From a virus, in the IMG/VR virus record IMGVR_UViG_3300028557_000198, positions 1 to 23,272 of that record: a stretch of DNA of 23,272 bases. One strand, 5' to 3'. Below the pieces are notes generated by a model. That model did no database searches. It worked only from the letters and a program-made list of their open reading frames with translations, and had not been told where the DNA came from. Of the stretch, positions 1-17,159 are shown piece after piece. A program made the translations under genes and the position numbers. The stretch's first letter is position 1. Each line of letters starts with the position of its first letter.

Positions 1-601
1 CTTGAGCACCTATAGTGCCTTGAGCACCTATAGTTCCTTGAGTTCCCTGTATACCTGTTCCACCTGTAAACCCCTGTAAGCCTTGTAAGCCTTGAAGACC
101 TTGTAAACCCTGTAAGCCTATAATACCCTGAGTACCTTGAGTACCTTGAGTGCCCTGAAGACCTTGTAGACCTTGAGTTCCCTGTATACCTGTTCCACCT
201 GTAAACCCCTGTAAGCCTTGAAGACCTTGTAAACCCTGACTACCCTGTAAGCCTATAATACCCTGAGTGCCTTGAGTGCCTTGAGTGCCCTGAAGACCTT
301 GTAGACCTTGAGTTCCCTGTATACCTGTTCCACCTGTAAACCCCTGTAAGCCTTGTAAGCCTTGAAGACCTTGTAAACCCTGTAAGCCTATAATACCCTG
401 AGTACCTTGTCTGCCCTGTAAGCCTTGTAGACCTTGAGCACCTATAGTGCCTTGGGAACCTATAGTTCCTTGAGCTCCTGTAGTACCTTGTGTTCCTTGT
501 CTACCCTGTAAGCCTTGAACACCTTGCAGGCCTTGAACACCTTGAACACCTTGAACACCTTGAGGTCCTAATGCTCCAGTACCGCTAAAAATTAATGCCA
601 T
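1..601 (-). CDS. Collagen-like repeat protein, 3' end beyond window (partial)
   Basis: The frame opens with ATG at 601 and stays open to the left edge, about 200 codons, so the C-terminus is missing. It begins MALIFSGTGALGPQG and at once enters Gly-X-Y triplets, mostly GVQ, GLQ and GTQ, with GTI/GSQ and a recurring GFTGGTGIQG variant. There is no globular N-terminal domain, unlike the larger collagen gene in this window. The start lies three bases after the stop of the 246-aa gene, which suggests one transcript. Collagen-like triplet proteins in tailed phages are usually trimeric fibres of the tail or capsid, so a virion fibre role is inferred. The missing C-terminus would show whether it carries a receptor-binding or trimerisation domain. 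Confidence 0.85.
   Translation of the reverse strand, partial: MALIFSGTGALGPQGVQGVQGVQGLQGVQGLQGRQGTQGTTGAQGTIGSQGTIGAQGLQGLQGRQGTQGIIGLQGLQGLQGLQGLQGFTGGTGIQGTQGLQGLQGTQGTQGTQGIIGLQGSQGLQGLQGLQGFTGGTGIQGTQGLQGLQGTQGTQGTQGIIGLQGLQGLQGLQGLQGFTGGTGIQGTQGTIGAQGTIGAQ
41..445 (-). repeat. 135-bp higher-order repeat, three copies
   Basis: Inside the partial collagen gene a block beginning agttccctgtatacctg recurs at 41, 176 and 311, exactly 135 bases (45 codons, 15 triplets) apart. The first 99 bases of copies 1 and 3 are identical. Copy 2 has the same ends but a shuffled order of triplets in the middle. Copy 3 diverges after about 409. The near-identity at the DNA level points to recent duplication or gene conversion. 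Confidence 0.9.
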
Positions 602-604
602 AGC

Positions 605-1345
605 TTACACCCCCTCCCAGAATATATATTGAGCTAAAACTCCTGCTGTAGTATTAACAGATATGTCTCCTTTGTATCTGTCATCAGAAAATTTTTCTCC
701 TCTACCGTCTCCAACAGCTGTTCCGGGGTATAAAACAAAATTAAACGATGTTGGGTTACACCCTAGACCATATTTGACAAATAAAGGACTAGTACCTAGA
801 TTATGACCGAATAAAGTAATTCTGTTAGCATTAGCTGATAATACCTGAACACCGGTACCTGAAGCTACTGTACCTGTAGTTTCACCCGAAAGGTAATTAG
901 AGATAGAGGCATAACCAACATCAAAAATAGTTACACTGTCAATATCTTTATCTAAGTCTCCCTGCAACGCAACAGCTCCTCCTGTTTGTATGTCTATGGT
1001 AAGAGGTGCATTGACCCCGGTTAGAGAAGGTACTGCAGATACTGAAGTAACTGGGGAGTAGGTAGTAGCATCTTGATATACCCCAAAGAGTGGTTCAAAA
1101 AAATCATCTAAAAAGATCTGCAAACTATCAGACGCCCCCATTGATGTAGTATCAGCAGATAGAGTTATAACATTATTAACTATATTAGCCCCTGCTGCGG
1201 GGTCGGCAAAATTATAGATAATAGTATTAGTTGCTACATTAGTTATAAGCAATAATTGCTCTAAAGTTATATTGGTAGTAAAACCAGATAAAAATACCTG
1301 CTTTGTAGATGGCGAAAATGAGTATCTATTTGCTAAAACTTTCAT
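605..1345 (-). CDS. Putative virion structural / fibre-associated protein
   Basis: This 246-aa protein has no signal peptide or membrane segment and is rich in Thr, Ser, Val and Gly with alternating hydrophobic residues, as in beta-structured phage fibre proteins. The C-terminal third (about residues 165-246) carries ANANRITLFGHNLGTSPLFV, then an FNFVLYPG stretch and a DDRYKGDISV stretch. This resembles a beta-sandwich domain I recall at the ends of neck or tail proteins in marine phages; that match is from memory and unconfirmed. It lies between the two collagen-like genes on the same strand, with a late-promoter-like octamer ten bases before its ATG and only three bases before the next start. 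A virion attachment or tip function is inferred; the exact role is unknown. Confidence 0.75.
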   Translation of the reverse strand: MKVLANRYSFSPSTKQVFLSGFTTNITLEQLLLITNVATNTIIYNFADPAAGANIVNNVITLSADTTSMGASDSLQIFLDDFFEPLFGVYQDATTYSPVTSVSAVPSLTGVNAPLTIDIQTGGAVALQGDLDKDIDSVTIFDVGYASISNYLSGETTGTVASGTGVQVLSANANRITLFGHNLGTSPLFVKYGLGCNPTSFNFVLYPGTAVGDGRGEKFSDDRYKGDISVNTTAGVLAQYIFWEGV

Positions 1346-1355
1346 TAACTTATAT

Positions 1356-1363
1356 TATTTATA
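1356..1363 (-). promoter_or_regulatory. T4-like late promoter octamer TATAAATA
   Basis: The minus strand reads TATAAATA, identical to the T4 late promoter consensus, with ten bases between it and the ATG at 1345. It overlaps the last codons of the large collagen gene, so the 246-aa gene may have its own late transcript. The leader would be only a few bases long. Confidence 0.6.
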
Positions 1364-4300
1364 GCGCTATAGAGAAAGCTATAGCTTGGTTTCTTGAAAT
1401 CCATTCACCGGAATTGCCCTGTTGGGCGTAGACGGTACCAGTGGCTGAAAGATTACCTGAAAGGGTAAGAGTTACATTAGGTTGTACTCCAATACCTAGT
1501 CTAGTATTAGCAGCATCAAAAATAAGAGCAGGTACCCCTGAGCGAATTCTAGGTGTTGACAGATCTCCACTTTGTACAAATATTGGATAGTGAAGAGTTC
1601 CAGTAGTAGTTGCTGTTGGAGTTATAACACCTGTTGGCCCTTGAACCCCCTGAGTTCCTTGTCTGCCTTGTAACCCTTGAGAGCCCTGAGAGCCTGTTGC
1701 TCCCTGAGACCCTATAGTGCCTTGAGTTCCCTGTAACCCTTGAGAGCCCTGAGAGCCTAAAGTGCCTTGAGTTCCCTGTCTACCTTGCAAGCCTTGAAGA
1801 CCTTGAGTGCCTTGAGTTCCTTGAATACCAGATAAACCGACACTACCAGTAAATCCTTGTAGTCCTTGGGTGCCCTGAAGGCCTTGTCTGCCTTGTAGAC
1901 CTTGGGTACCCTGAGAGCCTGTAGCACCCTGAGAGCCTGTAGCACCTTGAGAGCCTACAATTCCCTGAGACCCGATAATGCCCTGCAAGCCTTGAAGACC
2001 CTGTAAGCCTTGAGAGCCTGTAGCTCCTTGAGAACCTATGATACCCTGAGAGCCAATAGTGCCTTGAAGACCTTGAGTTCCTTGTCTACCTTGTAAGCCT
2101 TGAAGACCTTGACTGCCTTGAGAACCTATAGCTCCTTGAGAACCTATAACTCCTTGAGTGCCCTGTACACCTTGCAAGCCTTGAAGACCTTGACTGCCTT
2201 GAGAACCTATAGTTCCTTGAGAACCTATAATACCTTGAGTTCCTTGTCTGCCCTGAAGTCCTTGTAAGCCTTGTAGACCTTGACTGCCTTGAGAACCTGT
2301 AGCTCCTTGAGAGCCTATAACCCCTTGAGTGCCTTGTAAGCCTTGATTACCTTGAAGTCCTTGAGGCCCTATAATCCCTTGAGTTCCTTGAGTGCCCTGC
2401 AAGCCTTGAAGACCTTGAAGGCCTTGATTACCTTGCAACCCCTGAAGGCCCTGACTACCTTGAGAGCCTATAACCCCTTGAGTGCCCTGTACGCCTTGCA
2501 AGCCTTGAAGACCTTGAGTTCCTTGATTACCCTGAGAACCTACAACCCCTTGAGTGCCCTGTACGCCTTGCAAGCCTTGAAGACCTTGAGTTCCTTGATT
2601 ACCCTGAGAACCTACAACCCCTTGAGTTCCTTGTCTGCCCTGAAGTCCTTGTAAGCCTTGTGCACCCTGTAAGCCTTGTGCGCCCTGTAAGCCTTGAGCA
2701 CCTTGGGAACCTATTATACCTTGTAAGCCCTGTAAACCTTGCAGGCCTTGAAGCCCCTGGCTACCCTGAGGCCCTATAATACCTTGAGTTCCCTGTAAGC
2801 CTTGAGTTCCCTGTAAGCCTTGACTGCCTTGAGAGCCTATAATTCCCTGTGTTCCTTGTCTACCTTGTAATCCCTGTAAGCCTTGAAGCCCCTGACTACC
2901 TTGAGAACCTATAACACCCTGAGTTCCCTGTAAGCCTTGAAGGCCTTGAACACCTTGTGTACCTTGAAGACCTTGAACTCCTTGTAAGCCTTGAACACCT
3001 TGTGTACCTTGTAGACCTTGTGTACCCTGAGAGCCTTGAGCTGCCGCCTGCCCTTCTCTGCCTTGTAAGCCTTGCAGGCCTTGAAGACCCTGTAAACCTT
3101 GCAAGCCTTGAAGCCCCTGGCTACCCTGAGAACCTGTAGAGCCTTGCGTGCCTTGCGTGCCTTGAAGACCTTGTAAGCCCTGTAGTCCCTGTAAGCCTTG
3201 AGTTCCCTGTAAGCCTTGAGTCCCTTGTGTCCCTTGAGCTCCCGTAGTTCCCTGTGTACCTTGTAAGCCTTGAGTTCCCTGGGAACCTTGAGCAGCTGCT
3301 TGTCCTTCTTTACCCTGTAAGCCTTGAAGACCTTGAAGACCCTGACTACCCTGGGAACCAATAACACCCTGAGGACCTATAATACCTTGAGTTCCTTGTC
3401 TACCTTGAACCCCTTGTAGTCCTTGTAGACCTTGAGTTCCTTGAGATCCTATAGCACCTTGAGCTCCAATAAAACCAGAAACACCTTGAGTACCTTGAAC
3501 TCCCTGCAAACCTTGAGTACCTTGAACACCTTGAGTACCTTGAACACCTTGAAGGCCTTGCAGTCCTTGAGATCCTATAGTCCCTTGGATCCCTTGAGTT
3601 CCCTGCAAACCCTGTAAACCTTGGGTACCCTGAATACCTATAATACCCTGGGAACCAATAGTGCCTTGTAAACCTTGCAATCCTTGTAATCCCTGCAAAC
3701 CTTGAGCACCTTGGGAACCTATTGTACCTTGAACGCCTTGAACGCCTTGAACGCCTTGCAAACCTTGAACACCTTGCAAACCCTGAAGTCCTTGCAACCC
3801 CTGAGAGCCTATAATACCTTGTAGGCCCTGAAGACCTTGTAGGCCTTGACTGCCTTGAGAACCTATTATACCTTGAGTGCCTTGAACTCCTTGTAAGCCT
3901 TGAACTCCCTGAAGACCTTGAAGCCCTTGAATACCGATAACGCCTTGCAAACCTTGTAAACCCTGAAGTCCTTGAACACCCTGAAGACCTTGTAAACCTT
4001 GAGAACCTATAACCCCTTGTACGCCCTGAATACCTTGAGTCCCTTGAACTCCCTGAATACCTTGAGTTCCTTGAACACCTTGTAAGCCTTGAACACCTTG
4101 TAAGCCTTGTAGCCCTTGTAAGCCCTGAAGGCCCTGTGTGCCTTGTATGCCTTGAGAGCCTATAGTCCCTTGGATCCCTTGATCACCTTGTAAACCTTGA
4201 AGACCTTGTAAACCTTGAAGACCTTGTAAGCCTTGTGTGCCTTGAGAGCCTATACTTCCCTGAACACCCTGAGAACCTATAGTGCCTTGAAGACCTTGTA

Positions 4301-7300
4301 AGCCTTGAACTCCTTGTAGACCTTGTAGACCTTGTAACCCTTGAGTTCCTTGAGAGCCTTCAACTCCTTGAGAGCCTATAATACCCTGTAGACCCTGAAG
4401 ACCTTGTATGCCTTGAGTACCTTGATCTCCTTGTAAGCCTTGAAGGCCTTGTAATCCTTGAAGACCTTGTAGACCCTGTGTGCCTTGAGAGCCTATTATA
4501 CCTTGAGTTCCCTGTGTGCCTTGAGAGCCCACTGTTCCCTGAACCCCTTGAGAGCCTATAGTACCTTGTAAACCTTGAACACCTTGTAAGCCTTGAAGAC
4601 CTTGTAAGCCTTGTGTACCTTGAGAGCCTATACTTCCCTGAACGCCTGATTCACCTGTACCTCCAGTAATACCTTGAACACCTTGAGAGCCTTGAAGACC
4701 TTGCAAGCCTTGAAGGCCTTGCAGCCCTTGAGTGCCTTGAATACCAATCTCTCCTTGAAGACCTTGTAAGCCTTGAAGACCTTGCAGGCCCTGTAGTCCT
4801 TGAAGACCTTGAGTACCTTGAACACCAATCTCTCCTTGTAAGCCTTGAATGCCCTGTAGTCCCTGAAGGCCTTGACTGCCTTGTAGTCCTTGTAAGCCTT
4901 GCAAACCTTGAAGTCCTTGAGTGCCTTGTAAACCTTGCGGCCCTATTATACCTTGAACACCTTGAAGTCCCTGTAAGCCTTGTGTGCCTTGAGTACCTTG
5001 ATCACCATCGAAACCTATCGTACCCTGGGTACCTTGTAAACCTTGAGAACCTATAACCCCTTGAAGACCTTGTGTTCCTTGAAAACCTATAACACCCTGT
5101 GTACCTTGAGCCCCGATCTCGCCTTGTAAGCCTTGTAACCCTTGAGTTCCTTGTAAGCCTTGAGAGCCTGTAATACCTTGAGAACCTATAGTTCCTTGTA
5201 GACCTTGAGAACCTATAGATCCCTGTACGCCTTGATCCCCTATAAGTCCTTGTAAGCCTTGAATACCTTGAGATCCCTGAACACCTTGTTCACCAAATAT
5301 GCCTTGTAAGCCCTGAATGCCTTGCAGACCTTGAAGACCTTGTGTGCCTTGATCCCCTAATAGCCCTTGAAGCCCTTGAAGACCTTGAGATCCCTGAACC
5401 CCTTGTTCGCCCAATATACCCTGTAAGCCTTGAGTGCCTTGTAAACCCTGAATGCCTTGTAAGCCCTGTGTACCTTGTAAGCCCTGTGTACCTTGCAGGC
5501 CTATAGTCCCTTGTAGACCTTGAGAGCCTATTACACCCTGCAAGCCCTGAAGACCTTGCAAGCCTTGAGAACCCTGAAACCCTAAATTGCCTTGTAAGCC
5601 TTGAGGGCCTATAGTTCCTTGTAACCCTTGCAAGCCCTGAAGACCTTGCAAACCCTGAAGACCTTGAAGTCCTAACGCCCCTTGTAGGCCTTGAGAGCCT
5701 ATAGAACCTTGTAAGCCTTGTGTACCCTGAAAGCCAGAAAGACCAGTACTACCTGTACTGCCTTGAATACCCTGAGAGCCTATAGTTCCCTGGGTACCGA
5801 TTCCTCCTGTCTCTCCTGAGGTTCCTTGAGTGCCTTGGCGCCCTAAAGTGCCCTGGGTACCTTGAGTGCCGTCAATACCTGCTGTACCTGTAGCACCTCG
5901 CAGACCTTGAGTGCCTTGAGTGCCTTGTGCTCCTTGAATACCTAGTAAGCCCTGAACTCCCTGTATGCTAAGGCCTGAAAGACCTAAAGTTCCTTGCACA
6001 CCTTGTAATCCTTGAATACCAGATAGTCCTTGAATGCCTATAACACCTTGAAGACCTTGTACCCCTTGAGTACCTTGAGTGCCCTGCAGACCCTGAGTTC
6101 CCTGAACCCCTGATAACCCTTGTAGACCCTGTGTGCCTTGCGTACCCTGGAGTCCCTGTAACCCCTGAAGACCTTGTAAGCCTTGAAGGCCCTGCAACCC
6201 CTGCAAACCCTGCAGGCCTTGTGCACCTTGAGGGCCTTGTAGACCTTGAGTACCTTGAGTGCCTTGTGCACCTTGAACTCCTTGTATGCCCTGTAAGCCT
6301 TGTATGCCCTGTAAGCCTTGAGATCCCTGTGACCCCTGTAAACCTAATGGTCCTTGAAGTCCTTGAGTACCTGATAACCCCTGTATGCCCAACATACCCT
6401 GAACTCCTTGAACACCTTGAGATCCCTGCAACCCCAGAACACCTTGAAGTCCTTGCGTACCTTGTAACCCTTGTGTTCCTTGTAGGCCCTGATTACCTTG
6501 TAAACCTTGTATGCCTTGAAGCCCCTGTAACCCTAGTGTTCCTTGTACACCTAAAGCGCCCTGTAAGCCTTGAACTCCTTGTAAACCCTGAAGACCTTGA
6601 GTTCCTTGAGTTCCTTGATTTCCTATAATTCCTTGAAGTCCTTGTAAGCCCTGAACACCTTGAGTGCCCTGTAAGCCTTGAACACCTTGAGCGCCTTGTA
6701 AGCCTTGAACACCTTGAGTGCCCTGTAAGCCTTGAAGCCCCTGTAAACCTTGCAAGCCTTGAAGCCCCTGACTACCTTGAGAGCCTATTAATCCTTGAAC
6801 ACCTTGAACCCCCTGAATTCCTTGTTCTCCAGCAACACCTTGTACACCCTGTATACTTGTAATATTAGTACTAAATGTTATTGTTTGAGGTAAAACGCTC
6901 GGGTCAGTAGTTATAGAGATATTATCTCCGGGTATAAAAATTACCGTATCAAGACCTAAAGCAGTTAAAGGAGGTGAAGTAATATCATAGCCACTTACCT
7001 CCCAAAATTTAAATGTACTATTTAAACCTATCTTAACAGCACCGCTACTTAAATCTATAACATCAAAACCTGAATTGTCATCAAAACGAAGAGCACTAAT
7101 ACCGGTTAATACATTAAAAATATTATCGTTATTAATTTTACTTACTTCAAAGGTATTATTATTATTACCGATACCAGGTATACCTTGAGGTCCTGGAGGA
7201 CCTTGAGGGAATGAATACTCAATAACTGTAGACTCAGCTGATACCAACGCCACATTAACATTTACATTCTCGACAGTTGTAGAGAGATCTATTAAAAAGG

Positions 7301-7313
7301 TATCAGCAGCCAT
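1359..7313 (-). CDS. Giant glutamine-rich collagen-like fibre protein
   Basis: This 1984-aa protein has three parts. Residues 1-152 form a non-repetitive, beta-rich N-terminal region with a short [10 protein letters not shown] collagen motif at 38-47. Residues about 153-1895 are some 580 Gly-X-Y triplets in which Y is mostly Gln and X is Leu, Thr, Val, Ile or Ser. The last 89 residues are a non-repetitive tail containing [21 protein letters not shown], a pattern typical of phage fibre C-termini. Proline is almost absent from the triplets. The start follows the stop of the 113-aa gene after a single base, in a run led by the portal gene. Long collagen-like stalks are known in phage tail and capsid fibres; an extended trimeric fibre is inferred. 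The attachment site on the virion and the receptor cannot be told from sequence. Confidence 0.9.
1629..6857 (-). repeat. 9-bp periodic Gly-X-Gln coding array
   Basis: About 5.2 kb is built from nine-base units of the type GGN-NNN-CAR on the coding strand. The plus strand therefore shows endless ccttg/ccctg steps. Units group into longer modules of roughly 24-27 residues, in which a G[TVI]IGSQG segment follows several GLQ triplets. Synonymous Gly and Gln codons vary from unit to unit. Reading frames seen on the opposite strand here are by-products of the periodicity. Confidence 0.95.
2472..2615 (-). repeat. Perfect 72-bp tandem duplication in collagen gene
   Basis: Bases 2472-2543 and 2544-2615 are identical. 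Each codes for 24 residues (eight triplets, including [10 protein letters not shown]). A third copy starts at 2616 but diverges after about 11 bases. The lack of any synonymous difference implies a very recent duplication. Confidence 0.93.
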
Positions 7314-7314
7314 A

Positions 7315-7656
7315 TTATTTGGTTATATCAAAATAAATTTCCCACTTACCTTCCATATAAGTCTTTATAATACCTGTGGGATAGGTTATTTGAATATCAT
7401 ATAAATATGTTGCAGGGGGTATATCGATGACGATAGCGGGAATAGTAAATGCTGAAAGAGAAGGTAAAACAGAAATAGTAGATGTGGTTGTTGATAGAGA
7501 GAAAGCGGGCGGAGAATCATAATCTTCTCTTAACTCTATTGTTATAATAGTGTTAGAAAGATTTACAGGTACACCATTGACTGAAATACCAATAGAATTA
7601 ATTCCGTCCCAAGTATCACCCCTTCTGTGTCTAGGAAAGTTATAGGTGTAGGCCAT
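7315..7656 (-). CDS. Small beta-rich tail/baseplate-type protein
   Basis: This 113-aa protein begins [19 protein letters not shown], followed by short beta strands, [14 protein letters not shown], and a C-terminal [22 protein letters not shown]. The layout (an opening GDTW-like motif, then strands ending in a GKW segment) resembles small Ig-like or BppU N-terminal-like domains found in phage baseplate and fibre genes. That family match is from memory. The gene lies between the portal gene and the giant collagen gene, with a late-promoter-like octamer seven bases upstream and a one-base gap to the collagen start. It may adapt the collagen fibre to the virion; this is inference from position only. 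Confidence 0.7.
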
Positions 7657-7674: not shown

Positions 7675-9582
7675 TTACGCTGGAGGAGTTGAAGGTGTTG
7701 AAGCTCCTGTAGCCTGGGTTGGTGGTCCGGATTCTGGGGGTGCTCCTGCTCCGGCTTCTGCACCAGGCCCTGCCGCTCCTGTCTCTACCCCGGCTTCAGG
7801 TGCCGGAGCTGTTCCTCCAAATTCAGGAATCTCAGAACCTCCTCCACCGCCTCCGCCGAGTGCTGGTGCCCCTCCTGCCATCTCTCCTCCTTCAGGGGCA
7901 ACCCCGGCCTGGGCAGCCATTTGCTCTCTCCAGTTCGGTCCCATATTCTGAATCTGTGAAAGCTCCCACAACATAGCAGAATCTTTTCGAAGCCATTCTC
8001 TATTCTCTTTCATCTGTTCATCTGACCACTGTAAATAATATTTTTGTGAATAAGATTTAGCTATAGAATCGTTTTGAGTTGCTGAGTTAAAGTTTTCAAA
8101 CTTCATTTGCAGCAATTGCTGATCTCTCATTGCCATGAACGAGGTAGGAACATTGAACTCAACCTGTACAGCACGCTCTCTGAGTTTGTACTGCTTCCAA
8201 AAACCCTTCATCTTCAAATGCGCAATAAAGGTGTCTCGAATACCCATTGCAAATTGTCTTTGAATGCGCATTACAAAGCGAGCAAACCTTAGCTCTTCTC
8301 TTGTAATCTCAGCTCCGTCCTTAAACACTCCTCCATCCTCTGACATAAAACGTGAGGTAGGCACTTTAAGAGAGTTATAAAGCTTCTTAAGGAAGTAATT
8401 TAAGTCATCAAGCTGTCCTAAATTCTGACCTGCAGGAAGAGAATCAACAGTAGAACCATTGCCCTGGGCATCTTTAGTAAACCAATACGCATCGAGCATG
8501 GATTGAGGATCATAGATATTAGTAACCCGGCCTCCTGAGCCTTGCGATGAATCAAAATTCTTCTTAGTCCAATACGACTGCATGAGACGTTTGAGATAAG
8601 CCTCAGCCTTAGGTGGTGGCATGGAACCGGTGTAGATAGTAAAGCGAAGACGCTCAGGTGCTCTTACAAGTCTGTAAATAACAATTGAGTCCTCAACAAG
8701 TGATAACTGACGGTAAGCTCTCTTTGCATTCTCAATAAAGGGCAGACGGATTGACTTATACTCGTTCCAGATACCAGAGTTAATATAAGTGACCTGAGCT
8801 TTGTTCATGAAGAACAATTCTTCTTGATCCTTACGATTCATTGATGTAGCCGGACCTACAACGGGCTTACGAATTAAAAAGCCTTTAACCATTTCATTCT
8901 GAACGTTCTGATAAACAGGGTTAATAAGTTCAGAAGGAATAGAGACAAGACCCACTATACCTAAATCCTTCTTATCATCTAAAATAATATTCTCAAAATA
9001 TAACTCCCCGTCAATAAGAAACTGTCTAAAGTACTCCCAGCCTTTGTCCTCTAAGTCAAATATTTCAATAAACTTCTTATACTCTTTCTCAACTGTATCC
9101 TTAACCTCTTTACTATAATCCCCTCTTAAATTAAACTGTATAATATTATCATTGTCATCCTTAACGATACACTCATCGCAAATCTCGTCGATACAATCTG
9201 CTAGCTCAGCAAAAGCAGCCATACGACGATAATCCTGTAAGCGTCTAGTCTTGTCCTTATCTACATTAGCATAGATAAATGCTTGGTAATCCTTGTTGAG
9301 CGTAATAGCCCCTGGAGCCCCTGGTCCGCCTTGAAAAGAAAGTTCTGGGTCATTTAGGAAAACAGACTGATCTTGAATGATCTCTTCTCTTTTAGGTGCT
9401 GCTCTCTTAAAGTCCTGGAACCTTGGGTTCCGTTGCATCATTGAGTCTAAGATTTGATAAGCATATGGGAGCCGAGAAACAAAAGCACCAAGTAAAGTAG
9501 TTGAGGGAAAGGCCTGATCTTGAACGGGACCGGTAGTGTTCCCAGGGATAGCATTATTATAAGTGTATGCTTGATGAATCAT
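7675..9582 (-). CDS. 20: Portal vertex protein (T4 gp20-like)
   Basis: The 635-aa product would form the dodecameric portal at the unique capsid vertex, through which DNA is packaged and ejected. The core (about residues 30-555) shows hallmark gp20 segments: RRMAAFAELADCIDEICDEC near 119-138, FRQFLIDGELYFENI near 185-199, and the diagnostic RQLSLVEDSIVIYRLVRAPE at 291-310 followed by a PKAEAYLKRLM stretch. T4 gp20 is about 524 aa. The excess here is an N-terminal extension and a low-complexity Gly/Ala/Pro tail (about 556-635) with a run of eight glycines. The ATG at 9582 is preceded by a late-promoter-like octamer. Downstream come fibre genes rather than the prohead protease and scaffold genes that follow gene 20 in T4. 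Confidence 0.96.
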   Translation of the reverse strand: MIHQAYTYNNAIPGNTTGPVQDQAFPSTTLLGAFVSRLPYAYQILDSMMQRNPRFQDFKRAAPKREEIIQDQSVFLNDPELSFQGGPGAPGAITLNKDYQAFIYANVDKDKTRRLQDYRRMAAFAELADCIDEICDECIVKDDNDNIIQFNLRGDYSKEVKDTVEKEYKKFIEIFDLEDKGWEYFRQFLIDGELYFENIILDDKKDLGIVGLVSIPSELINPVYQNVQNEMVKGFLIRKPVVGPATSMNRKDQEELFFMNKAQVTYINSGIWNEYKSIRLPFIENAKRAYRQLSLVEDSIVIYRLVRAPERLRFTIYTGSMPPPKAEAYLKRLMQSYWTKKNFDSSQGSGGRVTNIYDPQSMLDAYWFTKDAQGNGSTVDSLPAGQNLGQLDDLNYFLKKLYNSLKVPTSRFMSEDGGVFKDGAEITREELRFARFVMRIQRQFAMGIRDTFIAHLKMKGFWKQYKLRERAVQVEFNVPTSFMAMRDQQLLQMKFENFNSATQNDSIAKSYSQKYYLQWSDEQMKENREWLRKDSAMLWELSQIQNMGPNWREQMAAQAGVAPEGGEMAGGAPALGGGGGGGSEIPEFGGTAPAPEAGVETGAAGPGAEAGAGAPPESGPPTQATGASTPSTPPA

Positions 9583-9637: not shown

Positions 9638-9856
9638 ATGAATTCAAATATGCACATAGAGACTCTAGCCTGGCTTGACAGGCAAATTGATGATATTCAT
9701 GCACAATCCGTCTTAGTAGGAGAGCTGTTACTAGATGAAGACGATCCTAAAATACTTGAAAAATACGATAATAAACTTGCAGAGCTAGAAAAAGAGCTCA
9801 ACAATATTAACAACAAAATTGAAGTAGAAAGAAGAATGCTCGCTAAAAAATTATGA
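9638..9856 (+). CDS. Small coiled-coil protein upstream of thyX
   Basis: This 72-aa, highly charged protein is largely helical. From about residue 36 to the end, a heptad-like pattern (ILEKYDNKLAELEKELNNIN) predicts a coiled coil. No family is recognised. Its stop overlaps the thyX start by four bases (ATGA), so the two are probably co-translated. The first ATG is used here; an in-frame ATG lies four codons later. It is the first gene of the plus-strand cassette opposite the portal gene. Function unknown. Confidence 0.75.
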   Translation: MNSNMHIETLAWLDRQIDDIHAQSVLVGELLLDEDDPKILEKYDNKLAELEKELNNINNKIEVERRMLAKKL

Positions 9857-10512
9857 AAGTTACATTAAAAGCCATTACTAGTCCGTCTCCGGAACTCCAA
9901 GAAAAAGGTATTAACGATGCCGAAAGGTTTATGGTATATTGTGCCCGGGTATCCAATCCGGCAAATCAATTTAATACTGATACCTCAGACCGTTTGATCA
10001 ATTACTGCATTAAGCATCAGCATTGGTCTATATTTGAACAAGCCTTCTGCACCTTTGAAATTGAAACTTCTAGAGCCGTTGCAGCTCAGATATTGAGACA
10101 CCGCTCCTTTACCTTTCAGGAATTTAGCCAGCGCTATTCAACAGCAACTCTTCTTGAACCTTTTGAGTTACGCAAACAAGGTAAAACAAACCGACAGGTA
10201 GGAGATGAGGTCTTTACTGTACAAGAGGATCCAAAACTTTTTGCTAAAATAGATAAGTTGCAAGAAGAACAGATCAACGTATACAATGAAATGATACAAC
10301 AAGGTATTGCAAGAGAGAGTGCCCGGATGGTCTTACCACTTAACACTCAGACGACTTTGTATATGAGTGGATCATGTCGTTCCTTTATTCATTATATTCA
10401 ATTGAGAGCAAAGGAAGAGACACAGAAAGAGCATCGAGAGGTAGCGCTTGAGATGAAAAAAGTCTTCTGTGAAGTCTTTCCTAATATTGCAAAAGCCTTA
10501 AAATGGGGTTAA
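9853..10512 (+). CDS. thyX: Flavin-dependent thymidylate synthase ThyX
   Basis: ThyX methylates dUMP to dTMP using methylene-tetrahydrofolate, FAD and NADPH, and is unrelated to the ThyA/Td enzyme carried by T4. The signature RHR(x7)S is complete: R82-H83-R84 with S92 in RHRSFTFQEFSQRY. The C-terminal part carries SGSCRSFIHYIQLRAKEETQ followed by KEHREVA, the usual nucleotide- and flavin-binding end. At 219 aa it is a normal full-length family member with no intron or truncation. The start overlaps the preceding gene by four bases. With the dCMP deaminase at 20375-20782 it completes a dCMP to dUMP to dTMP route for phage DNA synthesis. Confidence 0.97.
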   Translation: MKVTLKAITSPSPELQEKGINDAERFMVYCARVSNPANQFNTDTSDRLINYCIKHQHWSIFEQAFCTFEIETSRAVAAQILRHRSFTFQEFSQRYSTATLLEPFELRKQGKTNRQVGDEVFTVQEDPKLFAKIDKLQEEQINVYNEMIQQGIARESARMVLPLNTQTTLYMSGSCRSFIHYIQLRAKEETQKEHREVALEMKKVFCEVFPNIAKALKWG

Positions 10513-11045: not shown

Positions 11046-11458
11046 TCGGTGCCACTTAGCACAGAAATTCCAGACGACCAAGGTCTAAGCTCAAGTTGTG
11101 TCTGCTCTCCAGAATACAGGTACTTAACAGCATATTGAGTTAGTTTACCATAACCTGCCGGGTTTTGGACTATAACATCGATATAACCCGTACTAATTGG
11201 TGGAGGTATGTTTATAACTAAGGTGTTATCAAAATTAGTTGAATAATTTGAAGGTAAGAGCTTGTAAGCTGTAAAGCCTGGATTATTAGCAGATAGTTTA
11301 GGAATAGCTGAAAAAGGGTTATAAAATGTAGTGCCAGAGAGAGGCGCCCCGGAGAGATATACTGCTTGTAGCTGCATAAAGGATTTGCCGTAAACGTTAA
11401 AAGTTGCAGATAAGCCTACAAAAGCTACTGGGGTATATGGTTTAGTTAAAAATATCAT
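11042..11458 (-). CDS. Putative Ig-like tail protein downstream of gp15
   Basis: This 138-aa protein is beta-rich: an N-terminal YTPVAFVGLSATFNVYGKSF segment, a middle NTLVINIPPPISTGYIDVIV segment and a Tyr-rich end. The pattern (short sandwich strands with a VIVQNPAGYGK turn) resembles IPT/TIG or Ig-like domains common on phage tails. This is a fold-level guess. Its start overlaps the gp15 stop by one base (TAATG), so the two genes are coupled and probably late. A tail-completion or decoration role is inferred from that coupling. Confidence 0.75.
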   Translation of the reverse strand: MIFLTKPYTPVAFVGLSATFNVYGKSFMQLQAVYLSGAPLSGTTFYNPFSAIPKLSANNPGFTAYKLLPSNYSTNFDNTLVINIPPPISTGYIDVIVQNPAGYGKLTQYAVKYLYSGEQTQLELRPWSSGISVLSGTD

Positions 11459-12192
11459 TAGTTAATAATACTTGGTTGAGGTTGAGCTGAAAGAACTTTG
11501 CGTTCAGTTGTCAGTTCATTAAGGGCGTCAAGAGAGAGCATAGAGTTGAGACCTGATTCAGTAGAGTAGTTAGAATTAATGGTAAAGATTGTAGCTTCAG
11601 GGCCTGAAGGCTTTGATTTAAACAACCAACCCTTAAAGGTGAATGAAGTTGTACCTTCTACTCTAGCTACTGTTGTTGAATTGATATCATAAGGATAGGT
11701 TGCTGTGATGTTACCTGACCAAACAACTTGAGATCTAATTTCATAATCAGGCATTGAAGGGGTACGCCAAGATATGATAATATAAGGGTCAAAATAAGGA
11801 ACAAAATTAGTTACAATTTGATCGTAATCCTCTTGAAATCGAGTTAAGATTGTCATATTGATTGCTAGGTCAATAGGTACGGGTTGTAAAAGTTTATTAG
11901 TTTGAGTTGGGCTAGTTGAGGTCATATAAGAGCCCTGAATCTTATTAAAAACTCTATTAGGGTCTCTTGAAATGCCTCCATTAGTTAAAGCTATAACAGG
12001 CAGTTGAAGGTTCTGAGCCTTATCTAATAAATCTGCCAGTACCCGTTGCTTAGGTGCATAGACAAAGCGGCAACGAATAGAATCCTGAGGTTCTCTTAAG
12101 TTATTATAGCGCTTGATCGTAATATCGTCCATGGCACTTGCAAACATCTGAATCATTGTTGAGATTTCGAACGAATAGGTATATTTCCTCAC
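11458..12192 (-). CDS. 15: Proximal tail sheath stabiliser (T4 gp15-like)
   Basis: In T4, gp15 forms the ring that caps the finished sheath and tube and joins the tail to the head. The 244-aa product follows the gp15 pattern: SFEISTMIQMFASAMDDITI near 7-26, basic IRCRFVYAPKQR near 39-50, an LPVIALTNGG stretch near 64-73 and the conserved NMTILTRFQEDYDQIVTNFV at 112-131 followed by PYFDPYI. These align from memory with T4 gp15's IKRQ, TYASKEH and FTRYEDDMFQIVEQILPYF segments. The start is GTG at 12192; later ATGs would delete the N-terminal match. A late-promoter-like octamer lies five bases upstream. The sheath and tube genes (18, 19) are not next to it. Confidence 0.87.
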   Translation of the reverse strand: MRKYTYSFEISTMIQMFASAMDDITIKRYNNLREPQDSIRCRFVYAPKQRVLADLLDKAQNLQLPVIALTNGGISRDPNRVFNKIQGSYMTSTSPTQTNKLLQPVPIDLAINMTILTRFQEDYDQIVTNFVPYFDPYIIISWRTPSMPDYEIRSQVVWSGNITATYPYDINSTTVARVEGTTSFTFKGWLFKSKPSGPEATIFTINSNYSTESGLNSMLSLDALNELTTERKVLSAQPQPSIIN

Positions 12193-12197
12193 AACTA

Positions 12198-12205
12198 TAT
12201 TTATG
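12198..12205 (-). promoter_or_regulatory. Late promoter-like octamer CATAAATA before gp15
   Basis: The minus strand reads CATAAATA, one mismatch to T4 late TATAAATA, five bases before the GTG start at 12192. No Shine-Dalgarno sequence fits in the remaining leader. Confidence 0.5.
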
Positions 12206-12223
12206 TAGTTCCTTTGAAACTAG

Positions 12224-12231
12224 AATAAATA
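12224..12231 (+). promoter_or_regulatory. Late promoter-like octamer AATAAATA before first HNH gene
   Basis: The plus strand reads AGAATAAATA ending at 12231, five bases before the ATG at 12237. The same AGAATAAATA string precedes the second HNH gene. With the gp15 octamer on the other strand it makes a compact divergent late promoter pair. Confidence 0.4.
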
Positions 12232-12236
12232 TGTAT

Positions 12237-12998
12237 ATGGATTACGCACGTCATTATAACAAACTTATAGAACGTGCACCAAAAATAAAACCTTTAAACT
12301 ATTATACAGAAGGGCATCATATTAAACCGCGATGTATGGGTGGTACTAATGCAGATGGAATTGCATATCTAACACCTGAAGAGCATTATATAGCTCATTT
12401 ATTTCTTGTTAAAATCTATCCTGATAATCAATCTTTAGTTTATGCAGCTAATATGATGACTGTAAGTAGGGATGGGTCTAGAGCTAATAACAAAAAATAT
12501 GGTTGGTTGAGAAAAAAGTGTGCTATAGCTGCTAGTTTAACACATAAAGGGAGAAAAAGATCAGAACAAACTAGATCAAAAATAGCTGAGAGTAGAAAAG
12601 GAATAAAACTTTCTGAGCAACATCGACAAAACATTAAAAAAGCTTTAATCGGTAAATCAAGACCACCCGAAGTTATAGCTAAAATTAAAGCAGCTCAAAA
12701 GGGAAGACCGTTAACACCAAAACAAGAAGCAGCTAGGTTAGCTAAGATAGGTAAACCTAGAACAGAAGAACAAAAGCGCAAACAAAGCTTAGCAATGATG
12801 GGTAGAAAACTAACACCTGAACAGTTAGCCAATAGGGGTCCCCGCGGGCCTATGTCAGAAAAACAACGACAGGCGATTAGTGCTGCAAGAAAAGGACAAC
12901 CTTCAAATAGAAAAGGTAAAAGTATGTCTGAAGAACATCGCCGTAAAATAAGTGAATCTAATAAGCGCACTTATGCTTTAAAACATAATTTACTTTAA
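12237..12998 (+). CDS. HNH homing-type endonuclease with NUMOD3-like repeats
   Basis: The 253-aa product has an N-terminal HNH nuclease module with GHHIKPRCMGG and EEHYIAHLFLVKIYPDN. It is followed by repeated basic helices of the NUMOD3 type (GRKRSEQTRSKIAESRKG, GIKLSEQHRQNIKKALIG and later copies) that would bind DNA along the minor groove. Such free-standing enzymes cut a cognate site and spread by homing in T4-like phages. An ATG lies two codons earlier at 12231. I chose 12237 because MDYARHYNKLIERA aligns with the start of the second HNH protein, MNYQSIYNKIITRA. Starting further upstream would run into the gp15 gene. The end overlaps the convergent gene by nine bases. The insertion lies beside gp15 in reverse orientation. 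Confidence 0.9.
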   Translation: MDYARHYNKLIERAPKIKPLNYYTEGHHIKPRCMGGTNADGIAYLTPEEHYIAHLFLVKIYPDNQSLVYAANMMTVSRDGSRANNKKYGWLRKKCAIAASLTHKGRKRSEQTRSKIAESRKGIKLSEQHRQNIKKALIGKSRPPEVIAKIKAAQKGRPLTPKQEAARLAKIGKPRTEEQKRKQSLAMMGRKLTPEQLANRGPRGPMSEKQRQAISAARKGQPSNRKGKSMSEEHRRKISESNKRTYALKHNLL

Positions 12999-13380: not shown

Positions 13381-13953
13381 CTACCTATAATATCTCAAAT
13401 ACTCAGTCTTAGGGTTATGGTACTCTACAAGGGGTAAGATCTGTTCTGGCATCCGACGAACGATCTTAGGGTCGTTATAAGGAAAGGGATACCATTTGCG
13501 ATTGCGATACGTTGCCCAATAAGAGAAAAGATATGAATTAACCTGCTGACGGTACTTGGTCATATTGATATCTAGTTTAAACTTTTTAATCTTCTTCTCC
13601 GTTCTCTTCTCACAATCCCACTCCAACTCTATAGTATCCTTGAAGGCCTGAACAAGTCTGTCGTCAGCATACTTTGTACCCGAACACCACTTCTCAATCA
13701 TTGTAATCCCAGCATCAGCCTTGCCCCACAATGGATGCTTCTCTAAAAACTGATCCATATGACAGGACTCGTGGACTAAGACATCCAGCCAGTCTTCTTT
13801 TTGTGCTGCTACTTTAAGATCGATATCATCAAAGTATCCTGAGCACTTAATACCATCTGTGTCTACATGTTTAGAAGGCACGAGATGGAACCCAATGCCA
13901 TGCTTCTGGCAATCAGTAGCAACCTTAGCTACTAGCTTTTGAACATTTGTCAT
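13381..13953 (-). CDS. Putative zinc metallopeptidase-like protein (HExxH)
   Basis: This 190-aa protein contains LDVLVHESCHMDQFL at 56-70, which holds a complete HExxH zinc-binding motif (H61, E62, H65) in a hydrophobic helix. Downstream acidic residues in IELEWDCEKRTEKK (E109, E111 or E115) could supply the third ligand as in gluzincins; which one does so is inferred. There is no signal peptide, so it would act inside the host cell or be packaged. Its start overlaps the stop of the RmlD-like gene by four bases, so they are translationally coupled. No named family is recognised. It might process a phage or host protein, or the fold could be non-catalytic. Confidence 0.7.
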   Translation of the reverse strand: MTNVQKLVAKVATDCQKHGIGFHLVPSKHVDTDGIKCSGYFDDIDLKVAAQKEDWLDVLVHESCHMDQFLEKHPLWGKADAGITMIEKWCSGTKYADDRLVQAFKDTIELEWDCEKRTEKKIKKFKLDINMTKYRQQVNSYLFSYWATYRNRKWYPFPYNDPKIVRRMPEQILPLVEYHNPKTEYLRYYR

Positions 13954-14807
13954 GTTAAGTTACGGGCTAGGGTAGAGATGTCCCGGAGCAACGATGTCTG
14001 GGTATTAGGAAGCTGCAGTCCCAGGTCATCAATCTTTTTAGTAGACAAGACACAGTTTGAACGATTAGCCTTAGTATTAAGATCCTTTAGATCAATGAAC
14101 CGCCATCTTGAATTCTTTAAACCTCTCTCCTTCATAATCTGAACGACCTCTTCGGCTTTTACTGGTTCAGGATTAACAACATTATAAATCCCGTAATCAG
14201 GCTTGGCGCTAATAAACCGAACTACAAACTCATCAAAGTCATTGAGAGAAGTAACTGAATTAAGTTCATTAATGAGGGTGTCGTAATTGAGAAGTTTACT
14301 GAAATAGTTCTTCCGAGTCAAGATATCAGTAAAAGGAATTCTAATTCTAAGAACATAGCAGTTAAATTCTTTAGCAAAAGTCTCAAATACATGTTTACAC
14401 TTTGAATAATAAGAAGATTCATTCGAGTAGATTCCAAAGTTTGGTGTATCTTCCTCAGTAAATTCTTTTTCATAACCGGAATAAATGCATCCAGAACCTA
14501 TATGAATAAGAGGGATACCATAAGTATGACAAATTCGAACAACATTTAAAGGGTATAAAACATTGTAGCTGTAGCAGAGCTCTTTATTGTCTTCGCAAAA
14601 ATCAACATTTGGTACCCCTGTTAGTCCAAAAGCTATAATAATTTCTTTAATTTCAATATTATTTTCTTTTATATATTTCTCAAACACAGACGGATTAGTA
14701 TAATCAAGCTCTGACTGAGAAAAATGTTTAAACGAAATATTATTTTTACGAAAATAGTGTGCTAAATGCGTACCAACAAAACCTTTACCGAGAATAACAG
14801 TTACCAT
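13950..14807 (-). CDS. NAD(P)-dependent sugar reductase/epimerase, RmlD-like extended SDR
   Basis: This 285-aa protein starts MVTVILGKGFVGTHL, a Rossmann GxGxxG (G7-G9-G12) at the very N-terminus. A Ser/Cys-rich strand HIGSGCIYSG (102-111) precedes the catalytic YxxxK (Y134, K138 in SSYYSKCKH). The C-terminal NRSNCVLSTKKIDDLGLQLP matches the end pattern of dTDP-4-dehydrorhamnose reductases (RP-NS-LD-SKL). Length is normal for that family. The substrate is probably a nucleotide-linked keto sugar, but no other sugar-pathway gene is nearby, so the pathway is open. A phage could use it to alter host surface polysaccharide or to glycosylate DNA or virion. A strong hairpin terminator lies just upstream. 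Confidence 0.82.
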   Translation of the reverse strand: MVTVILGKGFVGTHLAHYFRKNNISFKHFSQSELDYTNPSVFEKYIKENNIEIKEIIIAFGLTGVPNVDFCEDNKELCYSYNVLYPLNVVRICHTYGIPLIHIGSGCIYSGYEKEFTEEDTPNFGIYSNESSYYSKCKHVFETFAKEFNCYVLRIRIPFTDILTRKNYFSKLLNYDTLINELNSVTSLNDFDEFVVRFISAKPDYGIYNVVNPEPVKAEEVVQIMKERGLKNSRWRFIDLKDLNTKANRSNCVLSTKKIDDLGLQLPNTQTSLLRDISTLARNLT

Positions 14808-14910: not shown

Positions 14911-14956
14911 CATTGTATTTAAGTAGAGAATAAATAATATTGCAATGAACTATCAA
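14876..14956 (+). repeat. 18-bp direct repeat at the start of the second HNH gene
   Basis: ATTGCAATGAACTATCAA occurs at 14876-14893 and again at 14939-14956. The second copy contains the start codon and first four codons (MNYQ) of the HNH gene. The first copy would open a 14-codon frame also beginning MNYQ and sits in the terminator loop. It may be a relic of duplication during insertion. Confidence 0.85.
14929..14936 (+). promoter_or_regulatory. Late promoter-like octamer AATAAATA before second HNH gene
   Basis: AGAATAAATA (octamer 14929-14936) lies eight bases before the ATG at 14945, between the two copies of the 18-bp repeat. The same ten bases precede the first HNH gene. No Shine-Dalgarno sequence is seen. 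Confidence 0.4.
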
Positions 14957-15613
14957 AGTATTTACAACAAAATTATCACTCGTGCTCGTAATAGAGTAAT
15001 TAATAATAATGATTATTACGAGCTGCACCATATTAAACCAAAATGTATGGGTGGTCAAGACATACCTGAAAATTTAGTGCACTTAACCGCTAGTGAACAT
15101 TATATTTGTCATTTACTTCTTTCGAGATTACACCCTAATAATATTGGATTAATAAGAGCGGTTATGTTTATGAGTTCATGTTCATGGTATCATAAACAAC
15201 CAAAAAATAAAACTTATAGTATTTATAGACGAAAATTTCATGAGTACTACATGAATAAAAGAATAAAAAGAAATTGTCAGGTTTGTAATAAAGAAATGTT
15301 GGTAGTAAAAAATTTAGAAAAAACTAAAAAATATTGCTCAAAAGAGTGTTTAACAGAATCTAATAGAACAGCAAAAGATATAGAAATAAACTGTAAAAAT
15401 TGTAATAAAAAAATTATTAAAAAAAGTTATACCTCAAAAGTATTTTGTTGTATGGAATGTTATGACAAATATAGAGGTAAACACCTTGTAAGAAGAAAAC
15501 AAACTACAAAGAAAAATTGTTTATTTTGTAGCAAAGAAATGGAATTAATGCCCCACTTAAAAGAACAAAAATTCTGTTCACATAGTTGTTCGAGTAATTA
15601 TAGAAAAAAATAA
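14945..15613 (+). CDS. HNH homing-type endonuclease with three C-terminal zinc-finger-like motifs
   Basis: The 222-aa product has the same N-terminal nuclease module as the first HNH protein: LHHIKPKCMGG at 27-37 and SEHYICHLLLSRLHPNN at 50-66. The C-terminal half differs completely. It holds three CxxC...CxxxC units (C111/C114/C131/C135, C150/C153/C168/C172, C192/C195/C211/C215), each able to bind one zinc and probably serving DNA recognition. Lys and Asn are very frequent and the gene is more AT-rich than its neighbours, as expected of a mobile gene. It lies on the plus strand between two minus-strand genes, ends three bases from the convergent guaC stop, and starts just after the terminator hairpin. 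Confidence 0.9.
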   Translation: MNYQSIYNKIITRARNRVINNNDYYELHHIKPKCMGGQDIPENLVHLTASEHYICHLLLSRLHPNNIGLIRAVMFMSSCSWYHKQPKNKTYSIYRRKFHEYYMNKRIKRNCQVCNKEMLVVKNLEKTKKYCSKECLTESNRTAKDIEINCKNCNKKIIKKSYTSKVFCCMECYDKYRGKHLVRRKQTTKKNCLFCSKEMELMPHLKEQKFCSHSCSSNYRKK

Positions 15614-15616
15614 TGC

Positions 15617-16600
15617 TCAAATTAAAGACCATTCAACTTCTTTAAAGGCCTCCAGGTCATTGCCTCCGGCATAAGAGATAGCAGAGGTTAGATCTTGGTG
15701 CACCTCTTTAAGCTTTTGTTCATAAGTCATACCATTCATAGGCATTGAAAGTGTTCGTCCTTCGATATTCTTCTTATTACCGTTCATCAAAGAGGCAGAC
15801 CCAAAATAGAGCTTCTTAGTAGGGTCAGTAGGATCAACCATAGCTGGAGAATCAATACAACGAGCAAACATTGAACCCGCCATAACCATATCAGCTCCCG
15901 CTACCAAAGCCTTAGCAATATCTCCGTTACAAGAAATACCTCCATCTGCAATAATAAGAGGGGCCGTTTTTTCGTTGTACTCTTCTCTGGCCTGTCTAAT
16001 TGTGTTGACAGTTGAGAACATAGGAGAGGCAAACCCTGTCTTATTGTAAGTAATACAACTTGCGCCGCAGGCTATGCCAATTTTTACCGCGTCTGCGTAA
16101 GGAGCCATTCTAAAGAAGGCAGAAGGTGTTGCGATATTGCCTCCAATAATAAACAGTTCAGGGTAAAGCAATTGCTTAAGCTCACTCAAATACCTAAGCA
16201 TATAGAGAGCCTCTTCATGATCTCCATGAGCTACATCTACTGTAACGAAATCTAACCTTAACTTCTCGTCAACAATAGTCTTAAGCATCTCTACATCTCT
16301 TTTCTTAATGCCAATTGAGATAGAAATAAAAGGAAGAAGATCTTTGCAATCTTTCATCCTGCGCATCCAGTTCAAGGTCTCATCATACTCATAAAACCTA
16401 TGCATGATGTAGAAGTACCCATTCTGTGCCAACCAAGTTGCCTTAGTCATGTCCACACATGATGCCATATTAGCAGGCACTAGAGGGAGCTTGAAAGTAA
16501 ACTTTCCAAAGTCTACAAATGTATCCGCTAACGCTCTTGACTTAAGCTCAGAGTAGTTAGGGATTAAATGGATGTCTTTGTAGTTAAGAGATCTTTGCAT
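15617..16600 (-). CDS. guaC: GMP reductase / IMP dehydrogenase family enzyme, GMP reductase-like
   Basis: The predicted reaction is NADPH-dependent reduction of GMP to IMP with loss of ammonia. The 327-aa product is a single TIM barrel without CBS domains, the size of GuaC rather than IMP dehydrogenase (about 490 aa). It shows the barrel start LNYKDIHLIPNYSELKSR, LPLVPANMASCVD near 38-50, the Cys loop KIGIACGASCIT with catalytic C182, ADGGIS at 218-223 and the flap NIEGRT near 278-283. The loop is variant: IACGASC where bacterial GuaC has IGPGSVC. The frame extends upstream to 16642, but ATG 16600 gives the family N-terminus and a one-base gap from the preceding stop. The usual barrel core is complete, so it is probably active. 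IMP dehydrogenase activity is not excluded. Confidence 0.83.
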   Translation of the reverse strand: MQRSLNYKDIHLIPNYSELKSRALADTFVDFGKFTFKLPLVPANMASCVDMTKATWLAQNGYFYIMHRFYEYDETLNWMRRMKDCKDLLPFISISIGIKKRDVEMLKTIVDEKLRLDFVTVDVAHGDHEEALYMLRYLSELKQLLYPELFIIGGNIATPSAFFRMAPYADAVKIGIACGASCITYNKTGFASPMFSTVNTIRQAREEYNEKTAPLIIADGGISCNGDIAKALVAGADMVMAGSMFARCIDSPAMVDPTDPTKKLYFGSASLMNGNKKNIEGRTLSMPMNGMTYEQKLKEVHQDLTSAISYAGGNDLEAFKEVEWSLI

Positions 16601-16601
16601 A

Positions 16602-17159
16602 TTAAAATTTTGTAGTAGGTTCGTCGTCAGGATCAAAGCCATAATGCTCCACTATACACTTCTTACACCGGGACATAACCCAACCATTATCGTATAATTT
16701 GCCTGGTTCTCCACAAATTTCACATACTTTACTAGAAAGATATGAAACATAGTCAATAGCGTTTTCAATCTGTTCGTAATATTTGTTAAATGCTTTAGTC
16801 TTCTCTTCAGGTAAAAGCTGTTCAAAGAGTTCTTGTTCATTCTCTTTTAACCCGTTACCAATCCAATACACTCTGATAGTACCATACTTCTCCTTTACTT
16901 GAGAAAAACATATAGAAGGACGGTAAAGGAAGATGTAACCTTTATTGTCTTCGGTCTTAAATTCTTCTTTGACTTTAAACATTTCTTGATGATCTGCAAG
17001 TGCAGTAAGATAATCACAAAGGTCATCAAAGATCTTATACCAACCGTCTCCAGAAAATTCTATTCCCCAACACATACAAGTCTCTTGCGGAGACTTATTT
17101 ACATCTCTAAACAGCTTCGGGTACTTAGCGATTAGCTGTTGTTCTAATTCAGGCTTCAT
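16602..17159 (-). CDS. Conserved phage hypothetical protein with C-terminal zinc-finger motif
   Basis: This 185-aa protein has an N-terminal MKPELEQQLIAKYPKLF helix, the short CMCWGIEFSGDGWYKIFDDL motif at 28-47, a middle SQVKEKYGTIRVYW segment and a C-terminal CEICGEPGKLYDNGWVMSRC region continuing KKC, where paired CxxC motifs could bind zinc. I recall this set of motifs in many phage proteins of unknown function. It overlaps the 73-aa gene by four bases and ends one base before guaC, so it lies within the operon. The Trp-rich central part and zinc site suggest a binding rather than catalytic role; that is inference. Confidence 0.8.
   Translation of the reverse strand: MKPELEQQLIAKYPKLFRDVNKSPQETCMCWGIEFSGDGWYKIFDDLCDYLTALADHQEMFKVKEEFKTEDNKGYIFLYRPSICFSQVKEKYGTIRVYWIGNGLKENEQELFEQLLPEEKTKAFNKYYEQIENAIDYVSYLSSKVCEICGEPGKLYDNGWVMSRCKKCIVEHYGFDPDDEPTTKF

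Follow-up and report, generated by a model that had tools for sequence, protein, structure and literature searches.

What makes collagen stable is commonly put down to proline and hydroxyproline or, in bacteria, to triplets that are rich in Pro/Thr or charged. The stretch of viral DNA analyzed here (IMG/VR record IMGVR_UViG_3300028557_000198, 23,272 nucleotides; hereafter the window) raises the question of what a protein with hundreds of Gly-X-Y triplets and hardly any proline might form, and where on a phage particle it might stand.

A collagen-like protein of 1984 residues

The open reading frame in question, present in the ORF list on the minus strand (1359..7313; 5,955 bp), proved to be a real gene encoding a collagen-like fibre protein of 1984 aa, all parts of which lie on that strand. 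The protein begins with an alternating hydrophobic stretch (residues 1–37, 7203..7313), followed by a short Pro-containing collagen patch of four triplets (residues 38–49, 7167..7202) and a non-collagen domain (residues 50–155, 6849..7166). The main array (residues 156–1897, 1623..6848) leads into a C-terminal non-collagen domain of 87 residues (1898–1984, 1362..1622), which ends in the hydrophobic tag AIAFSIAL (1362..1385). Residues 1–37 are proposed as a putative anchor into a collar; by eye, alternating hydrophobic N-termini were also seen in several other proteins encoded after collar-like genes.

A sequence-only reading had estimated about 580 triplets over about 1740 residues, and our count of 578 triplets over 1742 residues agrees with it, with three breaks: a missing glycine at residues 450–451 (IQ; 5961..5966) and two Gly-to-Ala changes of the form GQA-AAQ-G at residues 1340–1342 (3288..3296) and 1424–1426 (3036..3044). 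Runs of four or more triplets amounted to 582, comprising the main array (98 + 296 + 27 + 157) and the four near the N-terminus. Without a break, the array runs for up to 296 triplets; in 1000 shuffles of the same protein the maximum was 11. Glycine thus occupies every third position over a long stretch, as in collagen-like proteins in general, while the high Pro/Hyp content of animal-type collagens is absent: the array is indeed nearly proline-free, with 8 prolines among its 1742 residues, all at X and none at Y.

Glutamine was dominant at Y, as had been noted; the ‘almost always’ of that reading corresponds to a share of 81% (469/578), and I (54), T (16), L (13) and S (10) follow. The five residues previously named for X were recovered (L 212, T 106, S 79, V 66 and I 44 of 578). 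Cys, His, Trp and Tyr are all missing from the array, and charged residues number 30. A GxIGSQ motif was also observed (1623-6848, minus strand): GSQ comes next after 35 of the 54 triplets with Ile at Y and makes up 71/578 triplets overall.

When the N-terminal and C-terminal pieces of the array were scanned separately against Pfam, the former matched Collagen (PF01391) with 38.4 bits (cut-off 27.2), and the latter alone reached 25.4 bits, just below that cut-off. PHROG profiles, tail-fibre families among them, also cover the array (phrog_36982, phrog_6320 and phrog_5073), although matches on a repeat are little proof of kinship; phrog_36982, which has no stated function, weakly matches the N-terminal domain as well (E 0.0007). 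The C-terminal domain matches neither a Pfam nor a PHROG family, and its best relative among solved structures (E 0.21) is unconvincing. Searches against named phages returned no matches for the head domain of the fibre and none for a 150-aa array piece, a kind of query that the low-complexity filter probably masks.

The gene lies in a T4-like phage genome

Both a T4-type portal gene, gp20 (7675..9582, minus; PF07230, 334.3 bits), and a T4-type tail sheath stabiliser gene, gp15 (11458..12192, minus; PF16724, 81.8 bits), were found, and by these sequence matches the phage is T4-like. Judging from the portal sequence, named phages are no more than distant relatives: all 2496 matches among them fall below 60% identity (about 28–33% among the 30 listed). 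Along the minus strand, the portal gene is followed by the genes for the 113-aa protein, the fibre and the 246-aa protein and by the second collagen ORF, with spacings of 18, 1, 13 and 3 bases.

Residues 1–82 (1100-1345) of the 246-aa virion protein (605..1345, minus) form a conserved beta domain, phrog_5838, the only part that was modelled confidently. No solved structure matched its fold at E 0.001, and three matches at that level were obtained among predicted viral proteins; a new fold is not claimed, as the absence of a solved match does not establish novelty. The second collagen-like ORF (2..601, minus; PF01391, 106.3 bits), which the sequence-only reading had left unmentioned, begins with MALIFSG, contains a 135-bp tandem repeat and has 64 triplets, 49 of them with Q at Y, before it runs off the contig. 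One of two near-identical contigs described below (L010) diverges from the window inside that repeat and, since all contigs end within this second gene, its full length lies beyond what they cover.

Elsewhere in the window, family matches identified ThyX (9853-10512, plus), dCMP deaminase (20375-20782, plus), IMPDH/GMP reductase (15617-16642, minus) and an RmlD-like epimerase (13950-14807, minus), together with a weak GroES-like match (22610-23020, minus). Two opposite-strand ORFs (12138-12998 and 14945-15613, both plus) carry HHIKP-type motifs by eye and are, from their sequences, likely homing endonucleases; the first has a NUMOD3 match and overlaps the start of the gp15 gene.

A collar-like protein is encoded one base upstream

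The 113-aa protein (7315..7656, minus; phrog_1084, function not assigned) was modelled with AlphaFold2 from an alignment of 30 sequences (pLDDT 91.5). Comparison of the model with 999 chains by VIA-align ranked seven phage structures first: the baseplates of Douge (Z 10.3) and DT57C (Z 10.2), the T5 tail tip (Z 9.9, rmsd 2.6, 105 aligned), the baseplates of 80alpha (Z 8.7) and NF5 (Z 8.3), the Bas63 connector (Z 8.3) and the Sf14 neck (Z 8.1). Other proteins, including ordinary Ig domains, scored Z 7.9 or less. Sequence identity to the matched phage structures was 12–21%. Foldseek gave two matches at E 0.001 or better, both to bacterial Rib domains; Douge followed at E 0.0013, and by Foldseek alone the matches to T5, DT57C and 80alpha did not reach that threshold. 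From its 140 residues, the matched T5 chain appears to be p132, which is described as an Ig-fold protein akin to BppU that makes up the collar to which the side fibres are attached (PMC10038345). The 113-aa protein is thus predicted to have a BppU/p132-like Ig fold and, with its gene a single base upstream, the collagen-like protein probably serves as a tail side fibre.

The same comparison bears on a different position, namely that the protein might be a fibre of the same build on the head or neck (a whisker or capsid fibre). Two of the best seven collar matches, Bas63 and Sf14, are connector and neck structures, the fibre gene lies near the portal gene, and a collagen-like capsid protein is described in SPP1 (gp12; PMC6316719). 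Against this position, the five best matches are all baseplate or tail-tip proteins.

The pairing of collar-like and collagen genes recurs. Among 146 collagen ORFs with a visible 5' end, 27 have a collar-family gene within 1.5 kb upstream (a raw count in which four pairs are copies of the window's gene), and in 20 of the 27 the distance is at most four bases. Conversely, 21 of 41 distinct proteins encoded after collar-like genes contain at least 12 triplets; 34 of these followers have a visible end, of which 19 carry the C-terminal tag and 15 do not. These are likewise raw counts, from loci about half of which had been chosen for holding Gly-X-Gln arrays, and the follower was taken as the longest ORF near by, so that a few may be spurious.

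The body in the fibre slot differs between related phages

In two sister loci (L014 and L015) the same slot, with the same neighbours and a 246-aa gene that is 82% identical, holds a 330-aa protein without a single triplet. Non-collagen proteins of 662, 673, 543, 584, 155 and 504 aa were found in the slots of L016, L017, L019, L020, L021 and L023, respectively, and some related slots hold ordinary Pro-, Thr- or charge-rich collagens. With its T4-like context, collar-like neighbour and sisters with other slot proteins, the gene sustains the original description as a phage fibre; the array itself looks, from these sequences, like an exchangeable spacer. In L017 and L018 the slot of the second collagen ORF was also noted to contain a protein of about 155 aa, with a C1q match just below the Pfam cut-off.

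Residues 60–151 of the fibre match, at 46% identity, a domain encoded in another locus (L011, 9074-12169), where this pre-array domain comes after a charged (Asp/Glu/Lys) collagen; one domain is therefore combined with different collagen chemistries. The head of the fibre aligned to the sister 330-aa protein with a score of 39, equivalent to the mean of 200 shuffles (38), and N-terminal homology between the two is not claimed. For the tail of the fibre the score was 62, above the highest of the shuffles (55), owing in large part to the tag.

Downstream of the slot, the sisters encode a lectin-like gene (Laminin_G_3 in one of two paralogues tested in L014) and C1q-like genes with weak matches just below the Pfam cut-off. 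Such genes, as found in adhesion cassettes, argue against a head or neck position.

A C-terminal tag marks the slot

The tag at the end of the fibre recurs in the slot of related loci, on proteins with unrelated bodies (L012-L091), in forms such as FIIAMSVAL. Counting any ORF of at least 60 aa that ends within 400 bases upstream of a beta-domain gene, a tagged ORF was found in 75 of 79 loci, compared with 1 of 1615 other closed ORFs of at least 90 aa in the same loci; 75/79 is not an independent count, since there is some redundancy among the loci and the regex for the tag was devised with the first loci already in view. Three of the four untagged cases resemble tag variants and were scored as misses; L022 has no upstream ORF. 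A held-out test took in 10 of 32 matching named records, in which the tag was present in the Arthrobacter phages Sonali and Atuin (2/2), and in cyanophages the beta-domain gene was not preceded by a tagged protein (0/8). Within the Gly-X-Gln set, both beta-domain loci (L138 and L187) have the tag with one extra Phe, which falls outside the regex, and the regex fits 1 of 8425 closed ORFs. The five tag strings searched were found in no paper of the open-licence literature.

One form of the tag followed by a stop occurs at no fewer than 120 sites in virus contigs. Among the 120 listed, 37 have the beta domain downstream and 77 do not, four lie too near an end and two are in short ORFs. A downstream ORF is present at 79 of the 83 sites other than the beta-domain ones: 65 belong to one family of about 110 aa, 13 to another and one stands alone. 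No relation was detected between the family of 65 and the beta-domain family, and one tested member of the family of 13 matches the head-tail adaptor Ad2. An obligate pairing of tag and beta domain was ruled out, as only 37 of the 114 listed tagged ORFs with room downstream show it. The 77/114 without the domain, the 19/34 tagged followers of collar-like genes and the 0/8 in cyanophages indicate that the cassette is loose and the tag has no fixed partner. In our reading, the tag would either act as a joint at the C-termini of fibres or cap their trimers.

These downstream families add to the case for a head or neck fibre, in that the beta-domain family is filed under head and packaging and, in another branch, 13 of the 79 genes after tagged ORFs fall into the family with the Ad2-matching member. 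Weighed against the baseplate and tail-tip matches and the adhesion-type genes of the sisters, a head or neck fibre appears unlikely to us, and a side fibre of the tail is preferred in what follows.

A triple helix may be stable without proline

For the array, a collagen triple helix is the best reading of the sequence, about 500 nm long if straight; the length given in the sequence-only reading was reproduced (1742 residues × 0.286–0.29 nm = 498–505 nm). The putative triple helix that it had considered is backed at the level of sequence by near-perfect glycine phasing and the Pfam match.

Host-guest values are favourable for Gln and Ile in the Y position and for Leu in the X position. On an additive host-guest propensity scale, the array averaged 32.1 °C, compared with 29.0 °C for its X/Y-swapped form, and exceeded all of 2000 random X/Y orientations (maximum 30.9 °C) and 500 random compositions (maximum 29.5 °C). 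Without Gln, the X/Y preferences did not follow the scale significantly, neither in the window's array (rho 0.17, p 0.59) nor in 146 pooled arrays (rho 0.34, p 0.18). Thr and Arg are mostly at X, contrary to the scale, and 35 of the 146 pooled arrays score no higher in their actual X/Y order than when swapped. The sequence-only reading had traced the stability of a triple helix to hydrogen bonds of Gln side chains or to hydrophobic X residues. Given the favourable residues and an estimate of about 32 °C, no special glutamine bonding need be invoked, and a helix that is stable at moderate temperature without it is plausible from the sequence. The additive rule is reported not to be quantitative for recombinant collagens, with Scl2-derived chains of more than 150 residues given at 36–39 °C (PMC7824840).

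The near absence of proline and the lack of a significant fit to the host-guest scale once Gln is removed would also suit a non-collagen fold, such as a polyglycine-II bundle, a beta fold or a disordered Gln-rich tether. We consider this improbable in view of the unbroken runs of up to 296 triplets, the Pfam Collagen match, the superiority of the array over all 2000 random orientations on the host-guest scale and the ordinary Pro-, Thr- or charge-rich collagens in some related slots. A collagen triple helix is therefore retained.

The array is very unlikely to be an assembly artefact

Two further IMG/VR contigs were compared with the window. L009 has 10 mismatches over 17,268 bases (99.94% identity) and L010 has 20 over 17,181 bases (99.87% identity), and neither shows any difference within the 5,955-bp ORF, which makes an assembly error very unlikely. 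The 200 copies of GLQ are encoded by 34 different 9-mers, so that the array is no recent expansion of a single unit; its protein repeat has been kept while the DNA drifted. A meaningless repeat expansion or assembly artefact, to which the repetitive DNA and the termination of all three contigs within the second collagen gene might point, is already largely refuted by the identical gene in three contigs, the conservation of glycine despite codon variation and the intact ends and reading frame, and has in our view almost no likelihood left.

Low-proline Gly-X-Gln arrays recur in phages

A scan for 12 consecutive Gly-X-Gln triplets yielded at least 120 stretches in virus contigs and at least 118 in prokaryote genomes. 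Array ORFs, defined by a run of at least 12 triplets and Gln in at least 40% of Y positions, numbered 149 in the listed viral loci, many of them cut by locus ends. Proline makes up no more than 2% of X in 71 of these 149, so that the singularity implied by the sequence-only reading does not hold. Two of the 149 reach 578 triplets or more, and L163 has 426 unbroken triplets. In L052 and L053 the totals are 610 and 633 triplets, respectively. The window's gene is an extreme member of a recurrent type and among the longest. Paenibacillus genomes (L238, L216 and L233) were also seen to hold long Gly-X-Gln arrays, but with 31–41% Pro at X.

In the open-licence literature searched, no paper was found to name phage Gln arrays that are nearly free of proline. 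For viral collagens, Pro at 22% of X and Gln at 13% of Y are reported (PMC3368898), and collagen repeats are described as likely host-recognition parts of pelagimyophages and freshwater actinophages (PMC7029224, PMC10202952).

Proposed model and comparison with known systems

The explanation that we favour, and hold to be reasonably probable, is that the gene encodes a long collagen-like side fibre of a T4-like phage, carried in an exchangeable cassette. Its product would be the shaft of a very long fibre, in which three chains would wind into a triple helix of about 500 nm when straight, possibly hinged at the three breaks, with Gln or Ile in the Y positions and small or aliphatic X residues, rather than proline, providing stability. 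The N-terminus may lock into a ring of the 113-aa collar protein, in the way that the T5 side fibre is anchored in p132. The C-terminal domain and tag may start trimer formation, connect the shaft with the protein encoded by the next gene, or both. Array length would then set the reach while the end-pieces stay compatible, and the fibre might serve in long-range capture of host cells. The sequence, the gene order, the differing slot bodies of the sisters and the association of tag and slot were observed directly, as was the collar fold as a prediction; the triple helix, the location on the virion, the binding partner of the tag and the role in host capture are what we infer from them.

More tentatively, and less likely than not in our view, many metagenome phages may share a plug-in fibre system, made of an Ig collar, a freely exchanged body and a widespread AIA[YFM]xIAL tag, through which each fibre would mate with small virion proteins belonging to two or more unrelated families. 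The bodies would include nearly proline-free Gln collagens, reaching about half a micrometre in length, as a third way to stabilize the triple helix, beside hydroxyproline and Pro/Thr- or charge-rich triplets. Our confidence in both the favoured explanation and this extension was lowered by the lack of a tag in 15 of the 34 proteins with a visible end that follow collar-like genes.

The gene is a natural test of collagen stability without proline, with end-pieces that appear interchangeable, in a phage known from sequencing only. Its 578 triplets with 8 prolines, together with dozens of relatives with other X residues, provide material to test stabilization by Gln at Y, and Gln arrays are a possible source of new recombinant collagens that need no hydroxylation. 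Through the tag, fibre genes can be spotted by sequence in metagenomes, many of whose fibre proteins are unnamed. Were it extended, the fibre would have about three times the length of the T5 tail tube, given as 160 nm (PMC10038345), which bears on how phages find sparse hosts.

Similar in arrangement are pb1 and p132 of T5, where a small Ig/BppU-like collar protein is described as anchoring the fibre (PMC10038345), the same fold being predicted for the neighbour here; in the window, by contrast, the shaft is collagen-like, the phage is T4-like, and binding of the fibre by the collar would follow by analogy. FibU (gp68) of 80alpha, a baseplate fibre, likewise combines a BppU-like Ig domain with a subsequent stretch predicted to be collagen-like, but as one 390-aa protein with the stretch at residues 178–208 (PMC7048315), whereas two genes and 578 triplets are involved here. 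SPP1 gp12 is described as a virion trimer with a central collagen-like fold, although it has 64 aa and is located on the capsid (PMC6316719). EPclA and its relatives from E. coli O157:H7 prophages resemble the window's protein in that they are annotated as tail fibres, are described as having no hydroxyproline and prefer Gln at Y; the EPclA collagen is reported to melt at 42 °C (PMC3368898). They differ in having Pro at 48% of X and many charges there (PMC3368898), compared with Pro in 8 of 578 triplets and few charges in the array described here.
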